Below, one piece after another: positions 5,753 through 58,949 of a stretch of DNA of 64,000 nt. The stretch lies in the NCBI RefSeq assembly GCF_004323635.1, contig NZ_CP036515.1, forward strand, positions 1,440,501 to 1,504,500, read 5' to 3'. Within the stretch, counting starts at the first letter, position 1, and the number at the start of each line of letters is the position of its first letter. The notes under the pieces are model-generated. The model was given only the letters and a program-made list of their open reading frames with translations, made no database searches and was not told where the DNA came from. The position numbers were made by a program, and so were the translations under genes. Source of the DNA: Lichenihabitans psoromatis. GTDB lineage: Bacteria; Pseudomonadota; Alphaproteobacteria; Rhizobiales; Beijerinckiaceae.

Positions 5753-6055
5753 CTACGGCTGAGGGCGGCGCTGCAAGCGGCATCTGCGCACTTGCCCATG
5801 ACGTCCGTCCCGATGCCACGCGCAGCCCTCCCGTCGGATCGGCCGATCATAGAGGTCGATCACGGCATGGTGCCGCCTGTCGTAGCGCTGATGCGAGAAG
5901 TCGTGGCCGCCGATGAACACCCCCCGCCCAAATCGCACGTCTGCGAGAGCCGGGGCGAAGATCGCCGCCGCGGCCAGGATGGTCACCGTCCATAACGACC
6001 GATGGATCGCGGCGGCTACGGTGTGACGAGCGTAGCGTGGCGCTGCAAAGTGCAT
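5753..6055 (-). CDS. Small secreted His/Arg-rich protein of unknown function
   Basis: A minus-strand frame of about 100 residues. It starts at ATG 6055 (a GTG two codons earlier is also possible). It has a basic N-terminus, a hydrophobic stretch TVTILAAAAIFAPALA that reads as a signal peptide with an AxA cleavage site near residue 37, then a mature region rich in His, Arg, Gly and Asp ending in GRHGQVRRCRL. The composition after the signal is like many small exported proteins of Hyphomicrobiales. No ribosome site of note is visible. The opposite strand also has an open frame (5666-5995), so the call is moderate. Confidence 0.5.
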   Translation of the reverse strand: MHFAAPRYARHTVAAAIHRSLWTVTILAAAAIFAPALADVRFGRGVFIGGHDFSHQRYDRRHHAVIDLYDRPIRREGCAWHRDGRHGQVRRCRLQRRPQP

Positions 6056-6101
6056 TTCCACAAATACCCACCGTTACGAGGTTGCGCCACAAGGGAGTTT
6101 C

Positions 6102-6935
6102 TTAGACCAATGACATATCAATGCCGAGGTGCCTTACCATCCTGAGAACTTGCGCGGCCTTCTCGCTCGGGCAGAGAAGGTGGTTCCAGGCGTCGAAATG
6201 ATGAGCGACCGAAGCGCAATGACGCAAGCCCGATGGTGCAATCGCGAAGTCGATGTAGTCCGCTTCGATCAGAAAGCGATTGATGCTTTCGAGGCCAGCA
6301 TTTCCTAAGACTTCAATTGTCAAATAGGGTCTGTTCTTCGCGATCGTCTTTTGCCCGCCTTCGAGAACCGCATATTCGTGGCCTTCGACGTCGATTTTGA
6401 TCAATCGAATGGGTAACGAACTCAGTCTCTCGCTCCACCGATCAAGCGTTTCGGTTTCGATCGTTTGCTCGTGATAAACTCCAATCGACTCGGCATGAGA
6501 GAGCTCGAGACTCGAACTGGTCGTCACCAAACCGACGTCGTTGATCGTTTCATAGAAGCATGACGTTCCTGCCTTATTGGATAAGCCAATAGATTCGATC
6601 GTGATTCTTGGTGCCAAAGTGGGATTGGCTGCGACATTGGCACCTAGCAATAATCGGACGCTTTCGAGCGGTTCGAAGGCGACAACGCGTATGAGCGGGT
6701 TAGCGGCGGCCGCGACAAGGCTTAACAGACCGGTATTGGCCCCCACATCGAGGAATAACCCACCCGCTTCGCGGGCTAAATAGATGATGATGGCTGGGGT
6801 CGGGAACTCATAGCTACCAAGTCCGTCTCTCGATATCTGGGTCGCGATCGTGTCGAGCTGATCGGCATTGCGGAAGAAAAAGCTCACGCCACTTTCCTCG
6901 TCGAGAATTAAAAACGGCTCATCCAAATTGATCAT
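6102..6935 (-). CDS. FkbM family SAM-dependent methyltransferase
   Basis: A 277-residue protein with the FkbM methyltransferase layout: SAM-binding motif I LFLDVGANTGLLSLVAA (~residues 84-100), the acidic loop VVAFEPLESVRLLL, and the later LIKIDVEGHEYAVLEGG motif (~residues 172-190) that is the signature of the family. FkbM enzymes commonly O-methylate sugars or polyketides. It precedes nothing downstream on this strand but lies just after the large glycosyltransferase gene at 7057-9891, in the same direction, so methylation of a glycan made by that enzyme is a reasonable inference. Codon use is less GC-rich than in neighbours. Confidence 0.85.
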   Translation of the reverse strand: MINLDEPFLILDEESGVSFFFRNADQLDTIATQISRDGLGSYEFPTPAIIIYLAREAGGLFLDVGANTGLLSLVAAAANPLIRVVAFEPLESVRLLLGANVAANPTLAPRITIESIGLSNKAGTSCFYETINDVGLVTTSSSLELSHAESIGVYHEQTIETETLDRWSERLSSLPIRLIKIDVEGHEYAVLEGGQKTIAKNRPYLTIEVLGNAGLESINRFLIEADYIDFAIAPSGLRHCASVAHHFDAWNHLLCPSEKAAQVLRMVRHLGIDMSLV

Positions 6936-7056
6936 TTTTTGACCTGCTTAATTATGGAGAGCGATGCGAACACTTAAGAGTACGCCCCGTCTCCGGTTAA
7001 TCCGCACGTAAAATGACGGCTCTGTTCTGGATGCAATTTCCAAATATTGTTTTTAG

Positions 7057-9891
7057 CTAGATTTCTTGATCTGGATTTTCCATGAGGTAATAGGCAATGA
7101 TGCGTCGCATCGCGGTAGGACCGACCAACGCTTCAGCGCTGTTGCGGGCGTTCAAACCGATTTCTTTCCGCAAGTCAGGATCGTCCATCAGCCGCTTGAC
7201 CTGCTGAACCGCCTCTTCAGTATCGTCGAAGAGAAATCCGTTGACCCCAGACTCGATCGCTTGTGCGTACCCTCCAAGCCGATGCGCCACAACGGGTACA
7301 CCGCAGGCCATTGCCTCGATCACGACGCGTCCCCAAGGCTCGACCCAGGTGCCTGTCCGGTAAAAGTAACAATCGAGGCTACGAATAAAGTCTGGAATGC
7401 CTGAGCTGATTGTCGGTCTAAGATCGAGGCCGGTGATCGGACCGAACGTTTCTTGCATGCAGACGCCGCCGAGGACGATCGACCGCCCGCGTCCCGCTGA
7501 AACGGCGCGATATATTGCTGCGTCTTCAGGATGGTGTTTTTCCACAACATCGCGACTGTGACGTCCCAGCGTGAAAGGTCGCGTTGTGACCGTTGTGTCT
7601 GGAAAAAAGAGGTCCAGATCTGTCGGAGATGGTTCAAACACCCTAGGCAGCCCAAGTTCGGTCCGCATCATGTCCGAACAATAGATCAACTCCGTTCTCA
7701 AGCTGGTCCATTCAAAGATCGTCTCAATACGATCCATTGCGGTGGGAGCCTCGAAGGTATTGTAGAGACCGAGGACCCGGTGCGGCGCGATGAGCCGCAT
7801 CCAGGGCCCGAGATCGAAATAGAGGCCGACGAGGACCACGATCCCGCCTGGCGATGGAAGCTGGCCAATCCAGGGATCGACGACCCGCACGGTCCCACTT
7901 TCGATGAAGGCCGTATGGCACATATCCGGAGCCCAAAGCTCGACAGTTGCATAGGCTCGGAGCCGTTCCGCCAAGTCGAGCGCATGCAACTCGCTCCCGC
8001 CTCGCGTCTGCTCGAATTTTGAGAAGATGTGAATTGTACGGCGTGGACCGGACTTTTCCGTCAGGAGGTCAGCGATTGCCGGATCCGATAGTGCCTCGAA
8101 CCTTCTGATCGGTCGGTGAGCGACCATAGCCTCAAACCGGGACCCCTGATAAAGTGACTGAATTAATGCGGTTCCGAGGGCTAAAGGCGTCGCTGGTTCT
8201 TGGGGCTCGTGACTATCTCGTTGCTCCTCGACTGCAAAGCGGGCGAGCCAGCGATGATCATGTCGTACTCGCGTTCCGAGGTGGAAACGCCCGATCAGTA
8301 ATCTGGCGTGATCCGAAAGGGCAGCCACCCGCATAACAGTGTAGAGCCGAAGCACGTCGCCGCGCGTGGCGACGACAAAGGGAACCTCGAAGGCGATGGT
8401 CGCGAATTCGGCTGTTGTGCTGAGATAGCCGGCGCTGATGAAGCCGCTTTCCAGCAACTGCCAGGAGTTTGGGAAACCGGGCAGTCTATCGATACAAAGA
8501 GCCAAGGTCGCTTTGAACCGGCCGGCTGCGGCACTAAGCCAGGCGTAGAACTCAACGAACGCCTTATCCTTCACGAAGCCAAACGATCGTTGCTCGCAGA
8601 GCGCCATCGCTCGACGACCTCTTCCGCTTTCGAAGAGGGAGCGACAATATTCCCGTAAAGCATAGGCGTCATCCGGATGGACATCCGACGCGCGCTGCCA
8701 CGCTGCGAGGGTCGCCACAGCATCGCGCTGCCGCACGGCCATATGGGCTATTGCATGCAGTGCACGCGCATCGAAGCGCGTAAGCACGGAGAGCCGATCG
8801 AAAATAAGCGCCGCTTGGGCAGGTCCGCGAACATCTGCAACGGCATAACCGTGATCAAGTTCAATCTCGATGTCGAACGGGATCCCTGATTTACCGACTT
8901 CGATACGCTTCAGAGCTTCTTGGCGTGCATGGGCAAGTGTTGCGACCTTGTACAAAGCCCGTAACGCATCCGAGGCATTCCAATCATCCGAAAAGGTCGC
9001 CAGAGCGCCATCGGCCCTGTTCAGATCGCCGTCAATTGCCAAGTATTCGGCATATCGCTTTCGGTGCCAAATCGAATGCGGCCAGCGCCGGAGGAGAAAG
9101 CGACAAAGAAGCCGCGCCTTTCGAAGGTTGCCGCCCTTGGTATAAAGTTCGGAAAGCCAGTGGACTAAAATGAGATCGTTGTGGATGCGATACGCCGTAC
9201 GCGCCACAAGTCGCGCCTCATCGATGGCGCCGATCGAAGCCAAAACGGACATTAGCCTCCGATGTAGCTCCAACTCCTCAGGACTGAGAGCCACGAGGGC
9301 TCTGAGATGAGCGATCGCGGCAACTAAATAGCCACTTCGCTCCGCGAGATCGGCGGCAAGAAGTACGAACGATCGATTGGTCGGCTCGATCTCTAAAAGC
9401 CGTGACGCGTAGGGAATGCCCAAAGAAGGATGCGTGCCGTCGAGACAGACAGAGCCCATTTCGTAAAGGAGTGCAGTGTCGTGTGGCGCGTCGCTTAACC
9501 CGGTATAAAGCAAGCGTAGCGTTTCTTGATGGTCGTTTTTCCGAGTGACCCTCGCCAGCGCAAGGATGCCGCTCGGCTGCTGCGCAACGGTCTTGGACAA
9601 AAGATGCGCGGCGCGAAGATTTGAGGCGGCTTCGACAAACCCACCCAGGAAACATTCGCACGTTGCTAAATTGATGTGGAAACGCGCCAGAGCCTCAGGG
9701 TCTGCAACGGCGCTAGCCCGATCGAAGCCGATCGTCACCTTCCAAGCTGTCCGCGCCTCGCTCCAACGCGAGCGTCGCTGCAGTGAAAACGCGATCGCCG
9801 CAAGACCAAAAAGATGGATGCGGCCGGCATTTCGAAGAAACTTAACGTTGAAGACAGATTGGTTGATCATCAATAAAATTGCAATCTGCAA
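7057..9891 (-). CDS. TPR-repeat protein with C-terminal GT4-type glycosyltransferase domain
   Basis: A 944-residue two-part protein. Residues ~30-560 are a helical tetratricopeptide-like array (repeated A-x3-Y/L-x3-L patterns, e.g. ARFHINLATCECFLGGFVEAA and ALREYCRSLFESGRGRRAM). Residues ~610-940 look like a GT4 glycosyltransferase: GGSELHALDLAERL near the start of the fold and the donor-binding segment EPWGRVVIEAMACGVPVV followed by GYAQAIESGVNGFLF. It probably transfers a sugar to a surface polymer or protein, with the TPR part as a partner-binding platform. The first ATG is used; an ATG seven codons later is an alternative. Lower GC than the flanks suggests horizontal origin. Confidence 0.82.
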   Translation of the reverse strand: MQIAILLMINQSVFNVKFLRNAGRIHLFGLAAIAFSLQRRSRWSEARTAWKVTIGFDRASAVADPEALARFHINLATCECFLGGFVEAASNLRAAHLLSKTVAQQPSGILALARVTRKNDHQETLRLLYTGLSDAPHDTALLYEMGSVCLDGTHPSLGIPYASRLLEIEPTNRSFVLLAADLAERSGYLVAAIAHLRALVALSPEELELHRRLMSVLASIGAIDEARLVARTAYRIHNDLILVHWLSELYTKGGNLRKARLLCRFLLRRWPHSIWHRKRYAEYLAIDGDLNRADGALATFSDDWNASDALRALYKVATLAHARQEALKRIEVGKSGIPFDIEIELDHGYAVADVRGPAQAALIFDRLSVLTRFDARALHAIAHMAVRQRDAVATLAAWQRASDVHPDDAYALREYCRSLFESGRGRRAMALCEQRSFGFVKDKAFVEFYAWLSAAAGRFKATLALCIDRLPGFPNSWQLLESGFISAGYLSTTAEFATIAFEVPFVVATRGDVLRLYTVMRVAALSDHARLLIGRFHLGTRVRHDHRWLARFAVEEQRDSHEPQEPATPLALGTALIQSLYQGSRFEAMVAHRPIRRFEALSDPAIADLLTEKSGPRRTIHIFSKFEQTRGGSELHALDLAERLRAYATVELWAPDMCHTAFIESGTVRVVDPWIGQLPSPGGIVVLVGLYFDLGPWMRLIAPHRVLGLYNTFEAPTAMDRIETIFEWTSLRTELIYCSDMMRTELGLPRVFEPSPTDLDLFFPDTTVTTRPFTLGRHSRDVVEKHHPEDAAIYRAVSAGRGRSIVLGGVCMQETFGPITGLDLRPTISSGIPDFIRSLDCYFYRTGTWVEPWGRVVIEAMACGVPVVAHRLGGYAQAIESGVNGFLFDDTEEAVQQVKRLMDDPDLRKEIGLNARNSAEALVGPTAMRRIIAYYLMENPDQEI

Positions 9892-11316
<1,425 letters not shown>

Positions 11317-45981: not shown

Positions 45982-47253
45982 ATGATCGACGCAGGCGTAA
46001 TCGCCGACGATAGGGTGGGGCCCTTGGCCCGCAAGCAAACCGTTGCGGTGCGGGTCGGCAATGTGACGGTCGGCGGCGGTGCGCCTGTCGTGGTCCAATC
46101 GATGACCAATACGGATACGGCCGACATCGAGGGCACGGTGCGGCAGGTCGCGGCACTGGCGCGCGCCGGGTCGGAACTCGTTCGCATCACGGTCGATCGG
46201 GACGAGGCCGCCGCCGCTGTGCCGCATATCCGCGACAAGCTCGCGGCCATGAATGTCAGCGTCCCGCTGGTGGGGGACTTCCACTATATCGGCCATAAGC
46301 TGCTGGCCGATCATCCGGCCTGCGCCGAGGCGCTCGACAAATATCGCATCAATCCGGGCAATGTCGGCTTCAAGGACAAGAAGGACCGGCAGTTCTCGGC
46401 CATTGTCGAAATGGCGATCAAATACGGCAAGGCGGTCCGCATCGGCGCCAACTGGGGTTCGCTCGATCAGGATCTGCTGACCACGCTGATGGACGAGAAT
46501 GCCCGCTCGTCGGCGCCCGTCGATGCCCGCGCGGTCACGCGTGAGGCGCTGGTCCGCTCGGCCCTCTATTCGGCCGAACGCGCCGAGGAGATCGGCCTCC
46601 CGCGCGACAAGATCATCCTGTCGGCCAAAGTGTCGGCCGTGCAGGATCTCATCGCGGTCTATCGCACCCTGGCGTCGCGCTGCAACTACGCCATCCATCT
46701 CGGCCTGACCGAGGCCGGCATGGGCTCGAAAGGCATCGTCTGCTCCTCGGCCGCCCTCGGCGTGCTGCTGCAGGACGGCATCGGCGACACCATCCGCGTG
46801 TCGCTGACGCCGGAGCCGAACGGCGACCGCACCATCGAGGTCAAGGTCGCGCAGGAAATCCTGCAGACCATGGGGTTCCGCACCTTCGTGCCGCTCGTCG
46901 CCGCTTGCCCCGGCTGCGGCCGCACCACCTCCACGGTGTTCCAGGAGCTGGCGCGCGACATCCAGAATTACATCCATACCGAGATGCCGAACTGGAAAAC
47001 CAAGTTCCCCGGCGTCGAAACCCTCAACGTCGCGGTCATGGGCTGCATCGTCAACGGACCCGGCGAGTCGAAACATGCCGATATCGGCATTTCGCTCCCC
47101 GGCACCGGCGAAACCCCGACCGCGCCTGTCTTCATCGACGGCCAAAAGGCCATGACGTTGCGCGGCCCGAATATCGCGGGCGAGTTCAAGCAGCTCGTCG
47201 ACGACTATATCGTGCGCCGCTTCGGCGTGCAGACGCAGAACGCCGCCGAATAA
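45982..47253 (+). CDS. ispG: 4-hydroxy-3-methylbut-2-enyl-diphosphate synthase
   Basis: A 423-residue [4Fe-4S] enzyme of the MEP isoprenoid pathway. Substrate-binding start: [29 protein letters not shown]; the cluster ligands are in [17 protein letters not shown] (CxxC) and [19 protein letters not shown]. Length fits alphaproteobacterial IspG. ATG 45982 has a GGAGC site. Confidence 0.96.
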
Positions 47254-47454
47254 GGCCCTGCCGCGCCGGGACGACGCCGGGAACGTCTTCGCGCCCCAGT
47301 GATTTGCGTCTAGGGTAGCGGCGTGAGGTCCGTCGGCCGCGCGTTGCCGCGCGCCTGCGGGCTCTCCGACGGCAGGGAGATGGCGCGCGATGGTGGATTT
47401 CGGCAAGGTGGCGCGACCCCGTCGCTCAAGCCTCGTGTGTGATCGGCCGCAGCG

Positions 47455-48987
47455 TTGAGAACCGTCGTCGAACAACTCGAAAGCCGCCGCGCCTCCGCTC
47501 ATGCGGGGGGCGGGGAGAAGCGCGTCGCGGCCCAGCATGCGCGCGGCAAGTTGACGGCGCGCGAGCGGATCGACCTGCTGCTCGATCGCGGCTCGTTCGA
47601 GGAATTCGGCATGTTTGTCGAACATCGCTCGACCGATTTCGGCATGGCCGACACGAAGTTTCCCGGCGATGGCGTCGTGACCGGCTGGGGTACGATCAAC
47701 GGCCGCACCGTCTTCGTCTTCTCGAAGGATTTCACCGTCTTCGGCGGCTCGCTTAGCGAGACCCATGCGGCGAAAATCAACAAGGTGCAGGATATGGCGC
47801 TGCGGATGCGCGCCCCCATCATCGGCCTGTTCGATGCGGGCGGCGCGCGCATCCAGGAGGGCGTCGCGGCGCTCGGCGGCTATGGCGAGGTGTTCCGCCG
47901 CAACGTCGTCGCGTCCGGCGTCATCCCACAAATCTCGGTCATCATGGGCCCTTGCGCGGGTGGCGACGTCTATTCTCCGGCCATGACCGACTTTATCTTC
48001 ATGGTGCGCGACACGAGCTACATGTTCGTGACCGGGCCGGACGTGGTCAAAACCGTCACCAACGAAACCGTCACGGCCGAACAGCTCGGCGGCGCCTCGA
48101 TCCACACGACCCGCTCGTCGGTGTCGGACGGCGCGTGGGACAATGATGTCGAGGCGCTGCTGCAGGTGCGCCGGTTTCTCGATTTCCTGCCCGCCAACAA
48201 CCGCGACGGCGTGCCCGAGGTGGCGACCTTCGACGATCCCGAGCGGGAGGATGCCTCGCTCGAAACCCTGGTGCCGGAAAACCCCAACAAGCCCTATGAC
48301 GTCCACGAACTCATCGCCAAGACGGTGGACGAGGGCGACTTCTTCGAGATCCAGGCCAAATTCGCCGCCAATGTGGTGATCGGCTTCGCCCGCGTCGAAG
48401 GCCGCACGGTCGGCATCGTGGCGAACCAGCCGCTGGTGCTGGCCGGGGTGCTGGATAGCGACGCCTCGCGCAAGGCGGCCCGCTTCGTGCGCTTCTGCGA
48501 CGCCTTCGAGATCCCGATCGTCACGTTCGTGGACGTGCCCGGCTTCCTGCCCGGCACCGCGCAGGAATATGGCGGCCTCATCAAACATGGGGCCAAGCTG
48601 CTGTTCGCCTATGCGCAGGCGACCGTGCCGCTCGTCACCATCATCACGCGCAAAGCCTTCGGCGGCGCCTATGATGTGATGGCGTCCAAACACATCGGCG
48701 GCGATGTGAACTATGCCTGGCCGACGGCGCAGATCGCCGTGATGGGCGCCAAGGGCGCGGTCGAGATCATCTTCCGGGCCGATCTCGGCGATGCCGACAA
48801 GATCGCGGCCCGCACGGCCGAATATGAGGAGCGGTTTCTGTCACCCTTCGTGGCGGCCGAGCGCGGCTATATCGACGAGGTCATCAGCCCCCGTTCGACC
48901 CGCCCCCGTATCGCCCGCGCGCTGGCCATGCTGCGGCACAAGAAGGCCGAGATCCCGGCCAAGAAGCACGACAATATCCCGTTGTGA
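47455..48987 (+). CDS. pccB: Propionyl-CoA carboxylase beta subunit (carboxyltransferase)
   Basis: A 510-residue carboxyltransferase that moves CO2 from carboxybiotin to propionyl-CoA (acyl-CoA) in propionate, odd-chain fatty acid and branched-chain amino acid metabolism. Acyl-CoA and biotin pockets: [24 protein letters not shown] (~residues 122-145) and [30 protein letters not shown] (~360-390). TTG start. Its biotin-carrier partner pccA is 3.8 kb away, separated by an AT-rich insert and the NnrU-like gene. Confidence 0.93.
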
Positions 48988-49247
48988 GGGTAGGTGATAG
49001 ACTGCGCTTCAGGCGCAGACAGGAACGCCGCCTGGTTGACCGCGAACTTCGAGCCTTTAGCCGCTTCGTGCAGTATTGTTAGACCACGCGCAAACTGCCG
49101 CCGGATGTCATTTTTACTAGTTTAAAATTTACTAGCGATCTAATTAACGATTTAAGTAAAATAATAAAACTTATTTATACTGCGTAGCACTGAAGGCGAA
49201 TTTGGAAATCACAATAAACGCCAATTTGATTTACTAACTAAGGTCAA
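48988..49247. other. Intergenic junction: high-GC remnant passing into very AT-rich DNA
   Basis: The first ~110 bases look like native GC-rich DNA with a CTGCGC/GCGCAG hairpin (49002-49018). From about 49095 the sequence turns strongly AT-rich with runs such as TTTAAAATTTAC and AAAATAATAAAAC until the end of the next gene. It marks the downstream edge of the inserted two-gene module. No gene is seen. Confidence 0.6.
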
Positions 49248-49958
49248 TCACTGCGAAATTGTGTCATCAGATATCACTCGTATGACCTCTCGCAGATAAT
49301 CATAGCTTGATTGACCTGCTACTTCTCCAGCAAATTCGCCAATCGGCATATCTATGCTTACGCCTCTTCGGGAATTGATAACAGATATAGAGGGAGGCAT
49401 ACGTCCGGTTTTATTCAAGTGAAGCGCACTATAAATCGTAATTTGACGAAATTCATGAGACCGGAATGGTCGATCCCCGTCCTTCAATTCAATTACGTGC
49501 TCAAGATCACTTATCGCATCGCCGAAGCAGGTGTTAATAATTCCACAGCCGTCGTATCGAGGTGCGAGGATGACGCGATCCTGCCTCTTATAGAACAGGT
49601 GTGAGCACATACGTGTCGCAAGCGCAGATGCCTCGTCCAAGTCTGCGATAGATAAAAAACGTAACCCCGTCAAATTGGCCTCTGCTGCTGCAACGTTGTC
49701 CCTATCTGCGACAAACGAGGCTCTTGAAGCGTAGGATTGGAAGACTTCGACTGCGTCGACAAGCGAGCGATAGGCAACACGATTGATCAATGACCTTGCC
49801 CCTGGCTCGGAATCTGATCTGAGATGAGTCCAATTCCTAGTATAAAGATCTAGATTTACCTTCTTGACAAAAAGTTCCATTGTAGGGGCAAGGCTACGCC
49901 ACATTGAATTATACGATTTCACGAATCTAAGTTCTGAAATCATAGAGGAATGTTCCAT
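49248..49958 (-). CDS. RT-associated protein with a PD-(D/E)xK-like motif
   Basis: A 236-residue protein I cannot assign to a named family. The ATG lies 16 bases before the end of the reverse transcriptase gene (19-base overlap), so the two are probably translated together. The second half contains PRYDGCGIINTCFGDAISDLEHVIELKDGDRPF: Asp136 and Asp147, then Glu157-x-Lys159, followed by Arg171-Gln172. That spacing resembles the catalytic D...ExK core and trailing Q/R of PD-(D/E)xK nucleases. The N-terminal 120 residues are helical. A nuclease or DNA/RNA-processing partner of the reverse transcriptase is an inference. Codon use is AT-rich, unlike neighbours. Confidence 0.6.
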   Translation of the reverse strand: MEHSSMISELRFVKSYNSMWRSLAPTMELFVKKVNLDLYTRNWTHLRSDSEPGARSLINRVAYRSLVDAVEVFQSYASRASFVADRDNVAAAEANLTGLRFLSIADLDEASALATRMCSHLFYKRQDRVILAPRYDGCGIINTCFGDAISDLEHVIELKDGDRPFRSHEFRQITIYSALHLNKTGRMPPSISVINSRRGVSIDMPIGEFAGEVAGQSSYDYLREVIRVISDDTISQ

Positions 49959-51550
49959 GTTTTTGATTGATGCTTATCGTTAGCCCAATGGCGCGTAAGT
50001 TCTTCCATCGGTGAGAGCTCTCGGCGTACGTGCTTTCGCCAGTGGTCTCCTTCATCACCAAGTTCAAAACTGGCGATCATAAACCCTCGCCTTTCGACGG
50101 CACTTAACTGCCTAAAGCGAGTCTTTAAGTCAGAGAGCCAGTGCCAATCGCTCCATCTTGCAAGGGCCAGAATTATGTCTCGTTTGATGCCTACGTTACG
50201 GTCTAAGCGAAACAATTTTCCTAGAAGTAGTCGGCTATCCTCTTCATTTCTCAAAGCGAGAACGCGAACTGCATATTGCAGATTTAGTTCGACGACCATG
50301 ACGCGTGATTGATCATCGATTAGTTTTCTGATGTATGCGGTAATTTCGACTTGGACTTGATCGCTCAGTCTGTCGAAAACCTCTTTCGCCGTGATAAGTA
50401 CGTTATGGTAAACCGGATATAAAATATCGTGGTTCATCACTAAAGTTAGAATCGCATCTTCTAGTATCGCTCCCTCTAAATGTTTTGATAAAGACACCAG
50501 CCTGCGGGACAGTGCGACATCAACTCGTGATTTCTTTATCTCAGCCCGAATTAGCTCGATAACAGGATAGCGATGAATTTCCTGGCGGAGCTCCTCGTAG
50601 TCTTCAGAGGCATTTGGTGAATATGGATCATAATGCAGATTAATTGCCATAATCGCTTGGCGAGAGATGCCGAGGGGGGTGCCAACACCCCCCACTGCTT
50701 CTTCATCATGCACGAGTGGATTACTCGCGATAAATTCGGTCGATGACATGATTCTGGTTTTAGATTTTTGCAGCTGAAGACCTTGATTGTCAAACAATAG
50801 CCTTGTTAAAGTCACTAGCGACTTAAAGCACTCATCAGGGCTATTTGCGAAAATATAATAGTCATCCGCGTATCGTAGAAAATCTACGTTATTTGTAAGG
50901 AGTAAACTATCGATCTGAGATAAAACAAGTTCAGCTATTAAGCGAGACGCAGGTCCACCGACGGGTATACCAAACGAATATGTCCCTGAAAGGTTGGATA
51001 GGAATGCCTTTATTCGTTTGCCGGCGTAAGCGGCGTCCGGAAGGTGTTGAATTGCATTCTCGATCCTATGGTGATTTATTCTAGGATAGAACTCGGAAAT
51101 ATCGCAGCTTACGACAAAGTTGCTAGAAGCTGCTTTTTGGACGGCGCAATCAATAAAAGATCGCCATGTGATGTCCCTATTGAAACACGTTGCTTGCTCT
51201 TCATTCCAGCTATATCGATATGAAAATATCTTTTGGCGATCCAGTGCGAGCCGAGCGGCTTCAATCTGATCAGCGATCGACAAAACCCAACTCAGATAAG
51301 CGATGTTCCAAATCGGGTCGATTTGGAGCGCCCATCTAAAGCCGGTGTAACCCACAGGCGCTAGCGCGCTTACGTTTGTTGGCGGAAATTCGCCGAGGCT
51401 CACGACAACATCTGCATCGAGTTTTGTGAGTATTTCGACCGTTTTTTCAGGGAGGTCGTGGAACACGTGATTTTCAATTGGAAATGGGAAGATATCCGTA
51501 TCACCGTGTCGCACGATGTTTTTGATTGCCCTACGGTAAAATTGCTCCAC
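49940..51550 (-). CDS. Reverse transcriptase with helical C-terminal extension (UG/Abi-like)
   Basis: A 536-residue RNA-directed DNA polymerase. Catalytic motif A is SCDISEFYPRI (Asp150), motif B GIPVGGPASRLIAE (194-207), motif C RYADDYYIF (YADD, Asp229-Asp230), motif D NQGLQLQKSKTRI. Residues ~1-140 lack group II intron or retron-type N-terminal features, and there is no thumb/maturase or endonuclease domain; residues ~310-520 are a helical repeat-like region (e.g. RLVSLSKHLEGAILEDAILTLVM). This architecture matches defence-type (Abi/UG) reverse transcriptases rather than mobile introns. GTG start at 51550 with a GGAGGAAGG site. Low GC. The exact subgroup cannot be set by eye. Confidence 0.85.
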   Translation of the reverse strand: MEQFYRRAIKNIVRHGDTDIFPFPIENHVFHDLPEKTVEILTKLDADVVVSLGEFPPTNVSALAPVGYTGFRWALQIDPIWNIAYLSWVLSIADQIEAARLALDRQKIFSYRYSWNEEQATCFNRDITWRSFIDCAVQKAASSNFVVSCDISEFYPRINHHRIENAIQHLPDAAYAGKRIKAFLSNLSGTYSFGIPVGGPASRLIAELVLSQIDSLLLTNNVDFLRYADDYYIFANSPDECFKSLVTLTRLLFDNQGLQLQKSKTRIMSSTEFIASNPLVHDEEAVGGVGTPLGISRQAIMAINLHYDPYSPNASEDYEELRQEIHRYPVIELIRAEIKKSRVDVALSRRLVSLSKHLEGAILEDAILTLVMNHDILYPVYHNVLITAKEVFDRLSDQVQVEITAYIRKLIDDQSRVMVVELNLQYAVRVLALRNEEDSRLLLGKLFRLDRNVGIKRDIILALARWSDWHWLSDLKTRFRQLSAVERRGFMIASFELGDEGDHWRKHVRRELSPMEELTRHWANDKHQSKTWNIPL

Positions 51551-51740
51551 CAGCCTTCCTCCCAGGCCGGTATCGCTAGCAGGAGCAGGTTTCCATTTCT
51601 AGTGGATGTACTCGGCAGACTGTGGTCCTCGTGTCGATCAATGGACGAGTTGCGCTCTCCGTAATTAATCTGCGCTGAGATGCGGCGCCCCTTGCGGCAC
51701 CCCATCCCGCGCCATACAGCCCGAATGACGTTCGGCACCC
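51551..51740 (-). other. Leader region of the reverse transcriptase gene
   Basis: About 190 bases upstream of the RT start, non-coding on both strands as far as can be seen. On the RT strand it contains an AT-rich patch GATTAATTAC that could be a -10 element, and a small CTCGT/ACGAG hairpin. Defence reverse transcriptases often use a structured non-coding RNA encoded beside the gene; this and the AT-rich 49100-49247 stretch are the two candidate places. No known RNA motif is recognised. Confidence 0.35.
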
Positions 51741-51864
51741 CGAGACCGCCCTGTTCGCCGAAATCCTGATTGCTGATCGCGGAGCAATCGCCCGCCGCAT
51801 CATCAAAGGCCCTTCGCTTGGGGATCGCCACCGTAGCGGTCTAGTCGGAGGCCAACCGGGAAAA
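51741..51864 (+). pseudogene. Decayed copy of the 5' end of pccA (biotin carboxylase)
   Basis: Bases from CTGTTCGCC (51751) to CCAACCGGGA align with the start of pccA at 52786-52897: shared words include ATCCTGATTG, CGCATCATCAAA, GGGGATCGCCACCGT and GCGGTCTA. A two-base deletion shifts the frame after the RIIK codons and TAT is changed to TAG in the AVY region, so it cannot encode the protein. Similarity fades beyond about 51864. It is a fragment left by a duplication or by an insertion event at this locus. Confidence 0.85.
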
Positions 51865-51998
51865 CGGCGGATCGAGCTGGATAGGACGTGTCCGTCGAGC
51901 TTTGCGGCTTTCTCACATCAACTGAGTCGTGGCTCTGATCCTGCGGACATCCGCCAAGCGAAACGCGCTCGCGTTATCCTCTCAGGATCACAACCCCC

Positions 51999-52691
51999 TC
52001 ACCCCACCCAGCGCCAGATCCCGGCCGCCCATCCGGCCAGCGGGATATGGGCCCAGGTGGCGGCGAGCCACACGACGACCCCGCCGGCCAGTGCATGCAG
52101 GCCGAAACCGCTGATCCGGGCGCGGCCGCGCGCGAGGGCCGCGAAGGGGAGATAGCTCGTCTTGGCTTCCCAGGCCCGCCAGGTGTCGGGCTGCAGGCGT
52201 TGCTTCTTGCGGTCCTGCAAGGCGGCGCCGACCAGCGCCAACACCAGAACGGCGAGCGACAGCACGATATTGGCGGCGAGCGGATAAACCAAAATGTGGC
52301 AGGCGGCCCAGAGCGCGAAGGCCCACATCATCGGATGCCGCGTGACGGCATAGACGCCGCGCGCCTCGCCCACCACGGGTGCGCCGCCCGGATTAGGCAG
52401 GGCCGGGTTCTTGACCAGCGAGCCCATGAGCAGGATCGCGGCCACCAGCATCACCAGCGTGGCGACGGCCCAAAGGCCATTGCCGACATCCCAGAGTGGC
52501 GCGCTCGCGGGCGCGGCGCGGTAGGCGAAGGCCAGCCAGCCGAGCGTGAGGGCGGCAATGACCGAATAGAGGCCGATGAAGCCGGCTTCACCGAGCCGCG
52601 CGACGAGGGGCTGGCGTAGCGGATGCGACAGCAGAAAATGCGTGCCCACGAAGGCGATCGCCGCGACCGCAACCCATTCGGCGCCGTCCAT
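51999..52691 (-). CDS. NnrU family membrane protein
   Basis: A 230-residue multi-helix protein. Motifs AIAFVGTHFLLSHPLRQPLVARLGEAGFIGLYSV at the start, LVKNPALPNPGG, and YAVTRHPMMWAFALWAACHI (His-Pro motif in a helix) belong to the NnrU family, named from nitric-oxide-respiring bacteria but found widely. It may act on a membrane isoprenoid or other lipid (methyltransferase-related fold); function here unknown. ATG 52691 with GGGAGA upstream. Its start faces the pccA promoter. Confidence 0.85.
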   Translation of the reverse strand: MDGAEWVAVAAIAFVGTHFLLSHPLRQPLVARLGEAGFIGLYSVIAALTLGWLAFAYRAAPASAPLWDVGNGLWAVATLVMLVAAILLMGSLVKNPALPNPGGAPVVGEARGVYAVTRHPMMWAFALWAACHILVYPLAANIVLSLAVLVLALVGAALQDRKKQRLQPDTWRAWEAKTSYLPFAALARGRARISGFGLHALAGGVVVWLAATWAHIPLAGWAAGIWRWVG

Positions 52692-52785
52692 GTCCGTCTC
52701 CCGCTGGTTCGCACACGCCGACTTTGTCGATCTCATCCTCTGCTATAGAAAGTGGAGCAGGTCCACCGGTCCGACGAGGCTCCCC

Positions 52786-54789
52786 CTGTTCGCCAAGATC
52801 CTGATTGCCAATCGCGGCGAGATCGCCTGCCGCATCATCAAAACGGCTCGCCGCCTGGGGATCGCCACCGTGGCGGTCTATTCGGAGGCGGACCGGGATG
52901 CGCTGCATGTCGAGATGGCCGACGAGGCTGTGGCGATCGGCCCTGCGGCGGCGGCGCAATCCTATCTGCTGATCGACAACATCGTGGAGGCCTGCCGGCA
53001 GACCGGGGCCGAGGCGGTGCATCCGGGCTATGGGTTCCTGTCGGAACGCGCGGCCTTTCCCGAGGCTTTGGCGGCGGCCGGCCTTACCTTCATCGGGCCG
53101 AACCCCGGCGCCATCCGGGCCATGGGCGACAAGATCGAGTCGAAAAAATTCGCCAATGCGGCGAATGTCACGACCGTGCCGGGCCATCTCGGCATCATCG
53201 AGGATGCCGAAAGCGCCGTGATGATCGCGGCCGATATCGGCTATCCGGTGATGATCAAGGCCTCGGCGGGCGGCGGCGGCAAGGGCATGCGGATCGCCTT
53301 CGATGCGGCGCAGGTGCGCGAGGGTTTTGCGCGCGCTCGCTCGGAAGCCGCGACTGCGTTCGGCGACGACCGGGTGTTCGTCGAAAAATTCATCACCGAT
53401 CCGCGCCACATCGAAATCCAGGTGCTGGGCGATAAACACGGCAACGTGGTCTATCTCGGCGAGCGGGAATGCTCGATCCAGCGCCGCAACCAAAAGGTGC
53501 TGGAGGAAGCGCCCTCGCCGTTGCTCGACGAGGCGACGCGGCGCCTGATGGGCGAGCAGGCGGTGGCGCTGGCCAAGGCCGTGCATTACGATTCGGCCGG
53601 TACGGTCGAATTCGTGGCCGGGCAGGACAAATCCTTCTTCTTCCTCGAGATGAACACGCGGCTGCAGGTCGAGCATCCGGTGACCGAACTCGTGACCGGG
53701 CTCGATCTCGTCGAGGAGATGATCCGCATCGCGGCCGGGGAGCCGCTTCGCATCCGGCAGGAGGATGTGGTGATGCGCGGCTGGGCGGTCGAAAGCCGCA
53801 TCTATGCCGAGGATCCGACGCGCGGCTTCATGCCCTCGACCGGGCGGGTCCGCACCTATCGGCCGCCGCAGGAGGGCACCGACGCCGGCATTACGGTGCG
53901 GGTGGATTCGGGCCTCGTCGAAGGCGGCGAGGTGTCGATCTATTATGATCCGATGATCGCCAAGCTGATCACGCATGCGCCGACCCGATCCTTGGCCGTG
54001 GCGGCGCAGGCACGGGCGCTGGATGCCTTTGCGATCGACGGCATCCGCCACAACATCCCGTTTCTGTCGACACTGATGACCCATCCGCGCTGGAAAGAGG
54101 CGCGGCTGTCGACGGCCTTCATCGCGGACGAGTTTCCGGACGGCTTCGCCAACCATGTGCCGACGGGCGTTGCGGCGCGGCGGTTCGCGGCGGTGGCGGG
54201 CGCGATCGACCATCTGCTTAACCAGCGCAAGCGCGGCATTTCGGGGCAGCTGCATGCGGCCCGGCCGGTGGCGTTCGATACGGCGCGCGTCGCTCGCGTG
54301 GGGGAGCAGCATTTCCGCTTCACCATCGTGACGACGGGCGGCGGGGCGCTGCTGCGCTTCGAGGATGGCGGCCTCAGCGAGGTGCGCTCGACCTGGCGGC
54401 CGGGCGCGCCGGTGTGGACCGGCACGATCGATGGGGCTTCGGTGGCGTTCCAGGTGCGGCCGCATCTCAACGGCGTGCTGCTGATGCATGGTGGCGCGGT
54501 GGCCGAGGTGCAGGTGTTGACGACGCGCGAGGCGGAGTTGGCGGCGCTGATGCCCGTGAAGGTGCTGGGCGACAGCGGCAAGGTCGTGCTCTGCCCGATG
54601 CCGGGTCTGGTGACCGCGATCCGGGTCACGATCGGGCAGGATGTAAAGGCCGGTGAGCCGCTGGCGGTGGTCGAGGCCATGAAGATGGAGAATGTGCTGC
54701 TGGCCGAGCGGGACGGCACCATCGCGTCGATCGCGGCCAAGCCGGGCGACAGCATCGCGGTGGATGCGGTGCTGATGGAATTCGCCTGA
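52786..54789 (+). CDS. pccA: Propionyl/acetyl-CoA carboxylase alpha subunit (biotin carboxylase plus biotin carrier), probable CTG start
   Basis: About 667 residues. Biotin carboxylase: (L)FAKILIANRGEIACRII, HPGYGFLSE, ASAGGGGKGMRI (ATP-grasp glycine loop, ~residues 160-172), EMNTRLQVEHPVTE (~285-298). A middle BT domain follows and the carrier ends in VVEAMKMENVLL with the biotinyl Lys in AMKM. It carboxylates biotin for PccB. No ATG/GTG/TTG occurs at the family's expected start; CTG at 52786, six to seven bases after GACGAGG, gives the usual FxKILIANRG. ATG 52690 would add 32 unlikely residues and would lie before a likely -10 (TATAGA, ~52744). Confidence 0.9.
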   Translation: MFAKILIANRGEIACRIIKTARRLGIATVAVYSEADRDALHVEMADEAVAIGPAAAAQSYLLIDNIVEACRQTGAEAVHPGYGFLSERAAFPEALAAAGLTFIGPNPGAIRAMGDKIESKKFANAANVTTVPGHLGIIEDAESAVMIAADIGYPVMIKASAGGGGKGMRIAFDAAQVREGFARARSEAATAFGDDRVFVEKFITDPRHIEIQVLGDKHGNVVYLGERECSIQRRNQKVLEEAPSPLLDEATRRLMGEQAVALAKAVHYDSAGTVEFVAGQDKSFFFLEMNTRLQVEHPVTELVTGLDLVEEMIRIAAGEPLRIRQEDVVMRGWAVESRIYAEDPTRGFMPSTGRVRTYRPPQEGTDAGITVRVDSGLVEGGEVSIYYDPMIAKLITHAPTRSLAVAAQARALDAFAIDGIRHNIPFLSTLMTHPRWKEARLSTAFIADEFPDGFANHVPTGVAARRFAAVAGAIDHLLNQRKRGISGQLHAARPVAFDTARVARVGEQHFRFTIVTTGGGALLRFEDGGLSEVRSTWRPGAPVWTGTIDGASVAFQVRPHLNGVLLMHGGAVAEVQVLTTREAELAALMPVKVLGDSGKVVLCPMPGLVTAIRVTIGQDVKAGEPLAVVEAMKMENVLLAERDGTIASIAAKPGDSIAVDAVLMEFA

Positions 54790-54902
54790 CGCTCGCGGTT
54801 TCGGGCCGGATCGAGCGTCGGCAAGCCTGTCATCGGCCATCCGTCGATAAAGCTTTGGAATGTGTCTTTTTTGCAGAGTCGTTGTTTTCGGCAAGATGCT
54901 GG

Positions 54903-54917
54903 TTAATCAAGCCTAAA
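54903..54917 (+). promoter_or_regulatory. Imperfect CtrA-like site upstream of sciP
   Basis: TTAA-TCAAGCC-TAAA, one mismatch to TTAA-N7-TTAA. It is 70 bases upstream of a better site and may act with it. Confidence 0.35.
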
Positions 54918-54973
54918 ACTGTGTATCGAAGAGAAGCAACTTTGCTGCTGAAACCATGTCGGCGTGGGTAATC

Positions 54974-54989
54974 TTAACGAAATGGTAAC
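54974..54989 (+). promoter_or_regulatory. CtrA-type site upstream of sciP
   Basis: TTAA-CGAAATG-GTAAC matches TTAA-N7-TTAAC with one mismatch. It sits 99 bases before sciP. In Caulobacter sciP is activated by CtrA and SciP then inhibits CtrA, so the site fits a conserved loop. Confidence 0.6.
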
Positions 54990-55087
54990 AACTTGGCTCC
55001 ATCGCGTGATTTGGGCTTATCCAAACTTTAAGTCGCTGGTCCTACATTGTGATCGAGCGCGTAGAGTTTGTGTTTGCGAGTTGACCA

Positions 55088-55363
55088 ATGGTGGAAATGC
55101 TTCGGCCCCGAGTCAAATATGTCATCGGGCCAGATGGAAGTCCTTTGACGATCGCGGATTTGCCACCGCCCTCCACCAAGCGCTGGGTCATCCGGCGCAA
55201 GGCCGAGGTTGTGGCGGCGGTTCGCGGCGGCCTTCTGTCGCTCGAGGAAGCCTGCAGTCGCTATACGCTGACCGTCGACGAATTCCTGAGCTGGCAAATG
55301 TCGATCGACCAGCATGGCCTCGCCGGCCTGCGGACCACACGGATTCAGCACTACCGTCAGTGA
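55088..55363 (+). CDS. sciP: CtrA inhibitor SciP (DUF1153)
   Basis: A 91-residue helix-turn-helix protein, very close to the SciP/DUF1153 pattern: RPRVKYVIGPDGSPLTIADLPPPSTKRWVIRRKAEVVAAVRGGLLSLEEACSRY and TLTVDEFLSWQ, ending GLRTTRIQ. SciP binds CtrA and blocks its activation of target promoters in the alphaproteobacterial cell cycle. ATG 55088 (another ATG three codons later). Its stop overlaps the GTG of the next gene. Two CtrA-like sites lie upstream. Confidence 0.95.
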   Translation: MVEMLRPRVKYVIGPDGSPLTIADLPPPSTKRWVIRRKAEVVAAVRGGLLSLEEACSRYTLTVDEFLSWQMSIDQHGLAGLRTTRIQHYRQ

Positions 55364-56577
55364 CGGCGTCGTCATGGGCGTCGCGCCAGGGCGTCCTGCC
55401 GCTCGGGGCGGCGCGTCGCGCAGTGTTGGCGGTCGTGGTGCTGCTGCTGCCGGTTCTGGCCAATATGGCTCTGGCGCAGCCCGGCAACCCTCCTGCTCCC
55501 CCCGTCGTTCATCTCACCGGTTCTCCCGAGATCGTTTTTGCGGCTCCGCGTGATGCCTGCGATGGCGATGACGTTCCCGATGCCCCGGCCCGCGCATTTC
55601 GCGAGGCCCATGGCGGTGTAAGGCTGTTCGGGCTGCATACGAAGAACCGCAACCTCACCGGCCCCGATCTTGGCACCCTCACGATCGATTGCCGGCCCAC
55701 ACTCGTCTCGCATGGCAATGCGGACCCGGCGGCTTACGACGACCAGAGTTGGATCACCGCGACCTGGACGCGCGACGGCACGATCGTCGATGCCCTGATC
55801 CACCACGAATATCAGGCCAACCAACACCCCGGCCGATGCCGCTTCGCGGATTATATGCAATGTTGGTTCAATACCGTGCTGGCCGCACGCTCGACCGATG
55901 GTGGCGCGACCTTCGTCAAGGAGCAGCACCCCGTCGTCGCCTCGGCCCCCTTCGGCCAGGAGGTCGGGCAGGGGAGGCATCGTGGCTTCTTCAATCCCTC
56001 GAACATCGTCTCGGACGGGCCTTGGCTTTATGTCATGGCCTCGACGACGGGGTGGGACGGGCAGCCGAACGGCGTTTGCCTGTTCCGCACCGCGACGCCC
56101 GGCGATCCGCAATCCTGGCGCGCCTTCGATGGTCACGGCTTTTCGGTCGCCTTTGCGGATCCGTATAAGCGCCGCATGGAGCGTCAACCGGCTTGTGCTC
56201 CGATCGGTCCGTTCCCGGCCCCGGTCGGGTCACTGGTGCGGCGGCGGTCCGGCGGTGACTGGCTCGCCGTATTCCAAGCCAAGGCGGACCAGACGCTGTT
56301 TCCGGTGTCTGGCTTTTATGTCGCCAGCTCGCGTGATCTGTTGACCTGGAGCGACCCGCGTCTGCTGCTGCCGGGGCCGACGCTCTATGACGATCCGTGC
56401 CGATCGGGCGGTCAATTGCTCGCCTATCCTGCGATCCTCGACCGTCATGACGCCTCGCGCAACTTCGATCAAAGCGGCGATGATCCGGACCTTTACTATG
56501 TGACGCTCGCGGTGGAGGGATGCACGGTCACGAGCCGCAGAACCCTCCTGCGCCGGACGCTTGCGCTCGGTCGTTAG
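55360..56577 (+). CDS. Secreted sialidase/BNR-like beta-propeller protein
   Basis: A 405-residue protein beginning at GTG 55360, coupled by GTGA overlap to sciP. N-terminal signal peptide AARRAVLAVVVLLLPVLANMALAQ. The mature part has an Asp-box (LAARSTDGGATFVKEQ) as in sialidase and related beta-propellers, and further segments such as SNIVSDGPWLYVMASTTGWDG, FAVFQAKADQTLFPVSGFYVASSRDLLTWS. Several Cys occur (~8). A glycan-binding or glycosidase role is possible but the catalytic set of sialidase cannot be seen. No link to cell cycle is known. Confidence 0.7.
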   Translation: MTASSWASRQGVLPLGAARRAVLAVVVLLLPVLANMALAQPGNPPAPPVVHLTGSPEIVFAAPRDACDGDDVPDAPARAFREAHGGVRLFGLHTKNRNLTGPDLGTLTIDCRPTLVSHGNADPAAYDDQSWITATWTRDGTIVDALIHHEYQANQHPGRCRFADYMQCWFNTVLAARSTDGGATFVKEQHPVVASAPFGQEVGQGRHRGFFNPSNIVSDGPWLYVMASTTGWDGQPNGVCLFRTATPGDPQSWRAFDGHGFSVAFADPYKRRMERQPACAPIGPFPAPVGSLVRRRSGGDWLAVFQAKADQTLFPVSGFYVASSRDLLTWSDPRLLLPGPTLYDDPCRSGGQLLAYPAILDRHDASRNFDQSGDDPDLYYVTLAVEGCTVTSRRTLLRRTLALGR

Positions 56578-58809: not shown

Positions 58810-58896
58810 CAATGATCTTGCTGCATATGCCCTCCTTGGGCGTTTCCTCCCTAGACTTGGGCCGCTTGTGGTAACGCGAGCGGCCTCTTTCGTTTT
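58810..58896 (+). ncRNA. Probable small RNA of the mmgR/suhB (alpha-r8) family
   Basis: A plus-strand intergenic block between hisN and the amidohydrolase gene. It contains TTTCCTCCCT (58843-58852), the conserved unpaired decamer of the rhizobial MmgR/suhB RNAs, preceded by a CCC-TCCTT-GGG hairpin and followed by a GGCCGCT/AGCGGCC terminator-type stem (58860-58885) and CTCTTTCGTTTT. The suhB-motif RNA was named for its place near an inositol-phosphatase-type gene, as here. No protein frame fits the strand. End points are approximate. Confidence 0.65.
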
Positions 58897-58949
58897 GGTG
58901 GCAGGTTTTTCGGCCGAGGTCCATCCGAGCGCTGATGCCTCGGCACCGT

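Follow-up and report, generated by a model that had tools for sequence, protein, structure and literature searches.

A DRT8 reverse transcriptase–nuclease operon in Lichenihabitans psoromatis and a possible restraining role for its nuclease

Two adjoining minus-strand genes for a reverse transcriptase (RT) and a smaller partner lie within a 64,000-nucleotide (nt) stretch of Lichenihabitans psoromatis DNA (RefSeq assembly GCF_004323635.1, contig NZ_CP036515.1, positions 1,440,501 to 1,504,500; the whole stretch is called the window, and its numbering is used throughout). A first-pass annotation had read them as a possible RT–nuclease defence operon. Family models identify the pair as an anti-phage operon of type DRT8. 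Comparison with its relatives separates RTs that are accompanied by the nuclease from a sister group that is not, and supports a system of two proteins without a conserved cis-encoded RNA. We tentatively propose that the partner would restrain the DNA made by the RT.

Results

The pair is DRT8

The RT matches the PADLOC model Drt8 with 503.6 bits (E 2.1e-151) over residues 2-526, the runner-up being RT_UG21 at 106.1 bits, and it matches Pfam RVT_1 with E 2.4e-15. Its partner matches the PADLOC model RTasPDDEXK with 163.1 bits (E 2e-48) over residues 6-235. Since both matches are near full length, we assign the pair to DRT8, and the earlier placement of the RT among the UG/Abi-type enzymes holds. 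The PADLOC-DB model also means that the partner family is already catalogued, which rules out the idea of an undescribed partner; indeed, the introduction of a 2025 paper ascribes a PD-(D/E)XK domain to DRT8 (PMC12596737). Two 2026 reviews (PMC13213688 and PMC13314766) trace the definition of DRT8 to the surveys of Gao and Mestre and describe it as anti-phage yet mechanistically unresolved. No mechanism for DRT8 was found in the literature searched, a search that left most subscription journals outside.

Two other origins of the RT were considered and rejected. The group II intron model scored 64.4 bits against a cut-off of 300 and no intron RNA appeared in the Rfam scan, while the retron St85 RT model scored 54.7 bits against a cut-off of 235 and there was no Rfam retron match. 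The first-pass annotation had named three outcomes that would speak against it (an RT of retron or maturase type, a non-nuclease partner, no co-occurrence elsewhere), and none of them occurred.

The RT gene (49940..51550, minus strand) starts with GTG and encodes 536 residues, with the RT palm at about residues 123-272 followed by a C-terminal extension. The YADD catalytic motif lies at residues 227-230 (50861..50872, minus strand), as annotated before. A ribosome-binding-like site, GGGAGGAAGG (51554..51563, minus strand), ends 3 nt short of the GTG. The G+C content is 0.447 at 49-51 kilobases compared with 0.652-0.684 in kilobases 46-49 and 52-55. The first description of an AT-rich pair with a ribosome site was accurate. 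A whole-genome search with the RT found this single copy. Like other DRT8 operons, the pair is encoded on one strand, RT first and then nuclease, both proteins match near full length, and the YxDD and PD-(D/E)xK residues are present. There is no difference in kind. The window RT is 40-45% identical to those of three relatives (loci L022, L023 and L002). The nuclease is 27-30% identical to those of its nearest relatives found, and the window copy stands alone between pccB and pccA.

The called open reading frames (ORFs) of the two genes share 19 nt, as originally reported, because the longest ORF of the partner (236 residues) begins at the ATG at 49958. In all five junctions compared within clade A of the RT tree (see below; window, L002, L022, L070 and L078) the genes overlap by ATGA or GTGA, and the prophage and satellite relatives begin at the residue that corresponds to an inner ATG at 49943. 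The window nuclease therefore most likely starts there (49248..49943, minus strand; 231 residues), the RT stop and the nuclease start sharing the ATGA at 49940..49943 (minus strand). The true overlap is thus probably 4 nt, and the figure of 19 nt probably reflects a miscalled start codon. The arrangement suggests translational coupling of RT and nuclease at this overlap. Residue numbers of the partner given below follow the 236-residue call.

The partner weakly resembles end-dependent exonucleases

The PD-(D/E)xK core of the partner (49431..49520, minus strand) comprises D147, E157-x-K159, R171-Q172 and Y176, the last completing a QxxxY motif. All six residues are invariant in 15 partnered loci. 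The first-pass annotation had also counted Asp136 among the core residues; this position varies, while the remainder of its proposed PD-(D/E)xK-like core is conserved. The motif set D...ExK...QxxxY is that of RecB/Cas4-type PD-(D/E)XK exonucleases, and the partner has it in D147, E157, K159, Q172 and Y176. The 12 invariant residues of the partner include no cysteine and thus give no sign of an iron-sulphur cluster.

A predicted structure of moderate confidence (pLDDT 71, pTM 0.73) places strands at residues 147-150 and 155-159 and a helix at 167-184, preceded by N-terminal helices of moderate to low confidence; a single-sequence model reached only pLDDT 37. The first six PDB structures matched by the model are ACE1 (Cas4-like) and Dna2. 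In a second structure comparison the top twelve include AdnA, Dna2, Cas4, AddAB, ACE1 and MGME1, the resemblance being weak. In predicted fold, the partner thus weakly resembles exonucleases of the Cas4/Dna2/MGME1/RecB type, a likeness also seen in its D, ExK and QxxxY residues. It differs from this group in its sequence, which matches none of the PDB chains at E 10. Sequence searches against Pfam and NCBIfam gave nothing usable: three Pfam models each matched one of six partner members, the best being a DnaA helix-turn-helix at E 0.0037, which we take as chance. A match to PADLOC DruK (E 0.022) fits the superfamily only.

The RT leans towards class 1 UG/Abi enzymes

D150, D229 and D230 are invariant among 19 aligned RTs. 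The column of Y310 holds a tyrosine in 17 of the 19, which makes this residue a speculative candidate for a priming tyrosine. The two RTs without it, from the partnerless loci L021 and L030, have a tyrosine three residues earlier that may be its shifted equivalent.

In a PDB profile search the best matches of the RT, all near E 1e-21, were 9wy8, whose name is uninformative, a UG15 (DRT4) chain (E 1.9e-21), and 7r08 (E 2e-21), which we take to be Abi-P2. CRISPR-associated (Cas6-RT-Cas1) and group II intron RTs rank next, at E 7e-18 to 5e-15. AbiK (E 8e-15) aligns over residues 153-358, past the palm; the other matches cover mostly the palm. DRT3a (4.6e-10) and the 9ioa/9nlx chain (6.8e-9), the latter identified as DRT9 by its PDB code in PMC12483538, are weaker. 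With CRISPR-associated and group II intron RTs placed in between DRT4 and AbiK, this order of matches mostly reflects the palm. The presence of UG15, 7r08 and AbiK among the matches is a likeness to DRT4, DRT6 and Abi-type RTs, and this mostly palm-based comparison leans towards placing the RT with the class 1 UG/Abi RTs, a class marked by an alpha-repeat C-terminus and the lack of a cis RNA.

Relatives occur in satellites, prophages and plasmids

Relatives were sought with the Drt8 model and with the window RT (threshold E 1e-40 for both) and with the nuclease model (1e-5). The Drt8 model found 6 of 385 genomes drawn from the host class and 4 of 398 drawn from its phylum (two overlapping draws, each including the host's own genome), the window RT 3 of 249 genomes of the host order and the nuclease model 2 of 298 of the host family, the own genome again included. 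Further relatives lie on plasmids, in one actinobacterial genome and on viral contigs. Two nuclease matches with less than 80% cover were left out of the loci examined. A nuclease alignment of clade B (see below) gave no confirmed locus as query, and a viral scan that used only the window RT as query gave no match.

In E. coli the pair is present in 105 of 5426 genomes, in 104 at an identity of at least 99% and in one at 84.5%. The two proteins of one close E. coli relative are WP_000064054.1 and WP_000622599.1. Five of these regions were opened, and all contain tRNA-Thr, an integrase gene and psu, which marks them as P4-like satellites with the pair between psu and int. This segment of P4 is a reported reservoir of anti-phage systems (PMC9122126). 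Another pair (L070, with the near-identical L071) lies in a prophage, with a DUF1367 gene on one side and the gene of a phage DnaB-family helicase on the other. Four Escherichia phage records match over 26% of the RT; with the prophage RT as query, the phage records gave no match. Among the E. coli matches listed and the five regions opened, one copy (L086) has an altered RT, which is annotated shorter and from which 1 nt is missing; its nuclease has the same protein accession as intact copies.

Two plasmids carry further genes annotated as RTs. On an Aminobacter plasmid (L018, 6809-8653) a second "reverse transcriptase family protein" gene follows a partnerless DRT8 RT, and on a Sphingobium plasmid (L017, 7443-11135) a large "reverse transcriptase like protein" gene is convergent to the DRT8 pair, upstream of which there is an integrase gene.

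Partnered and partnerless RTs form separate branches

We scanned 34 loci with profiles built for this analysis, several of the loci being near-copies or overlapping stretches of one contig. All 34 have the RT and 23 have the nuclease as well, so that the co-occurrence anticipated earlier is borne out here as in the E. coli genomes. The nuclease served as query in finding some of the loci, and the proportion of partnered to partnerless ones should therefore not be taken as a frequency. The RTs without the nuclease are those of L018, L019, L021, L024-L026, L028-L030, L072 and L073. In a tree of 23 RTs (L031, with a cut N-terminus, and L073 were left out), a branch supported at 100/98 separates the ten partnerless RTs from the partnered ones. 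The partnered RTs comprise clade A (window, L002, L022, L023, L070, L074 and L076) and clade B (L016, L017, L020, L027, L032 and L077). Clade A alone is weakly supported (57/15), and we therefore rely only on the split between partnered and partnerless RTs.

Except in the close pair L018/L029, the 11 partnerless loci have no neighbouring gene in common, within flanks that differ in size (L073 begins inside the RT). Drt8 is the best PADLOC match in all ten relatives scanned from the three groups, and each of the eight partnerless RTs that were found or scanned with this model matches it. Equating a Drt8 match with the RT–nuclease pair would therefore mislabel the partnerless RTs.

Between the E. 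coli copies L078 and L085 the ratio of non-synonymous to synonymous substitution (dN/dS) is 0.051 for the RT and 0.055 for the nuclease, indicating purifying selection on both; over the five computable pairs per gene it is 0.035-0.118 and 0.055-0.286 respectively. RT and nuclease distances correlate with r 0.98 over 15 loci (none of 2000 permutations as high) and with r 0.96 when clade A is taken alone (2 of 2000 permutations as high). Kinship is left in these correlations, which therefore reflect shared descent more than contact.

Relatives lack a shared cis-encoded RNA

The E. coli copies L078 and L085 are 84% identical and have different integrase junctions. The block conserved between them starts 13 nt ahead of the RT and extends 40 nt past the nuclease stop, where there is a terminator-like hairpin followed by T residues; the flanks align separately. 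In E. coli, the conserved satellite unit thus consists of the ribosome site, the RT, the nuclease and the terminator-like hairpin only. Of the 5426 E. coli genomes, 1069 contain the satellite sequence that comes after the nuclease (143 of them at a cover of 80% or more), compared with 105 that have DRT8, and most of this sequence is therefore satellite core. The initial 50 to 70 nt are less common, yet they are not conserved between L078 and L085. Space is short in several copies: in L078 int and the RT gene share 8 nt, 49 nt separate the RT from an upstream ogt-type gene in L022, and there are 47 nt downstream in L070. Neither gene contains a stretch of unusual codon identity in 30-codon bins; one bin of 1.00 at the 3' end of the nuclease holds the last few codons only.

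For the relatives, module boundaries, space and the satellite-core control rule out a cis-encoded non-coding RNA (ncRNA) such as those of DRT2, DRT3 and DRT9, and they support the view that no shared flank position holds an ncRNA of useful length. From the relatives we infer that the window copy lacks one too. Some copies would leave room for one: in L085 there are 316 nt ahead of the pair and 834 nt behind it, in L002 several hundred nt upstream, and in the window 198 nt upstream, as far as a remnant of pccA, and 260 nt downstream. The downstream spacer, from the nuclease stop to the pccB stop (48988..49247), is AT-rich toward the nuclease and has no Rfam match at gathering score. The Rfam scan of the window gave a single match, RF00519 (suhB/mmgR small RNA) at 58822-58900 on the plus strand (62.9 bits).

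The lack of a conserved cis ncRNA around its relatives sets DRT8 apart from DRT9, DRT3 and DRT10, in which the RT works with an ncRNA; the profile similarity to DRT3a and DRT9 is also the weaker one. DRT4 needs no cis RNA, as stated in PMC13314766, and is in this respect like the DRT8 relatives.

The pair is probably inserted at the pccB–pccA junction

The pair is flanked by the carboxyl-transferase gene pccB (stop at 48987) and by an NnrU gene together with pccA, which encodes a biotin carboxylase that also has a propionyl-CoA carboxylase BT domain. The junction was compared in five congeners (L065-L069); it is empty or nearly so in two and occupied in three. In G492, pccA-like sequence begins directly at the pccB stop and in G435 17 nt beyond it, whereas G395, G467 and G514 have 3 to 7 kilobases of other sequence there. 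The comparison supports insertion of the RT–nuclease pair at this place, in agreement with the first reading, and with such mixed content the junction looks like a variable insertion point in the genus.

Upstream of the RT gene, between it and the NnrU gene, lies a diverged remnant of the 5' end of pccA (51749..51861, plus strand). It is a copy of 52784-52898, spans 113 base pairs and is 84-86% identical to the true pccA; it also aligns to pccA of L067 and L069 (76-78%). The remnant points to a scar of past duplication or recombination at the junction. An integrase- or tRNA-linked insertion was considered and set aside, as the window contains no tRNA and the junction shows the pccA remnant instead. 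None of the five neighbouring genes scanned (45982-56574) gave a PADLOC match.

A second stretch of lower G+C content (0.52-0.57) is found at 6001-10000 of the window, adjoining ilvC. It contains genes for an FkbM-family methyltransferase and a 944-residue glycosyltransferase/TPR protein, without a PADLOC match, and is possibly an acquired surface-polysaccharide locus.

Discussion

The role that we favour for the partner, with a confidence that approaches but does not reach an even chance, is that of a built-in restraining exonuclease for RT-made DNA. The RT would make DNA without a cis-encoded RNA template, and synthesis might be primed on a tyrosine, perhaps Y310, although this last step is speculative. 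In healthy cells the partner, a putative RecB/Cas4/MGME1-type exonuclease, would continuously destroy the product. By analogy with DRT9, DRT4 and DRT3, a phage able to shield DNA ends or to inhibit nucleases would tip the balance, DNA would accumulate, and growth and phage production would halt. ExoI keeps the DRT9 DNA product in check (PMC12483538), RecBCD restrains the DRT3 product (PMC13174585), and host exonucleases act on the DRT4 product until phage ORF55 protects its ends (PMC13314766). It is this restraint of DRT3, DRT4 and DRT9 products that leads us to prefer restraint over an effector role for DRT8. DRT9 and DRT3 would then be like DRT8 in having their RT-made DNA held back by exonucleases. 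DRT4 consists of one gene, and the exonucleases that its product encounters are those of the host; DRT8 carries a nuclease gene of its own and would supply the restraint for which the other three systems rely on the host. The nuclease-free sister group fits such a scheme because its RTs could use host nucleases, and L086, in which the RT is shortened but the nuclease is not altered, fits it as well. With slightly less confidence, we extend the proposal to a self-contained balance, in which an RNA-free RT would always make DNA and its own exonuclease would always remove it, the trigger being any phage that disables nucleases or caps DNA ends. The nuclease would then be a captured version of the host checkpoint, gained or lost once between the branches.

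Nucleases are common effectors, and the partner could instead be switched on by infection-induced RT DNA, or by an RT–DNA complex, and degrade phage and host DNA in an abortive infection. Invariant catalytic residues, the presence of both genes at all clade A and clade B loci scanned and a probably coupled expression all suit an effector, which explains the pairing as well as restraint does. Nevertheless, we regard it as rather unlikely: all 11 sister loci lack the nuclease by profile and have no shared substitute, for which an effector model needs a reason, and the fold of the partner is, weakly, like that of end-dependent exonucleases. Its likeness to Cas4, MGME1 and AddAB-type end-processing nucleases would also suit an enzyme that trims phage DNA ends or the RT product into primers or mature ends, the RT-made DNA then doing the work. 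The correlation of RT and nuclease distances (r 0.98) can be read in the same sense, but the partnerless relatives manage without a nuclease and we think such processing improbable. That the pair is not mainly a defence system, but an RT–nuclease element with another role or passive cargo, seems very improbable. The window copy lies outside any visible defence island, none of its five scanned neighbours having a PADLOC match. However, the E. coli relatives occupy the psu–int reservoir of P4-like satellites (PMC9122126), the prophage relative sits beside DUF1367 and DnaB-family helicase genes, both genes are under purifying selection, and PMC13213688 and PMC13314766 state anti-phage activity for DRT8.

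The comparison narrows DRT8 to a pair of proteins with no conserved RNA in cis, with a likely nuclease type and with a natural sister group that is free of the nuclease. Restraint and effector models give opposite predictions for two mutants. If the restraint model is true, exonuclease gating of RT-based immunity would be generalised, with the gate carried along as a gene.
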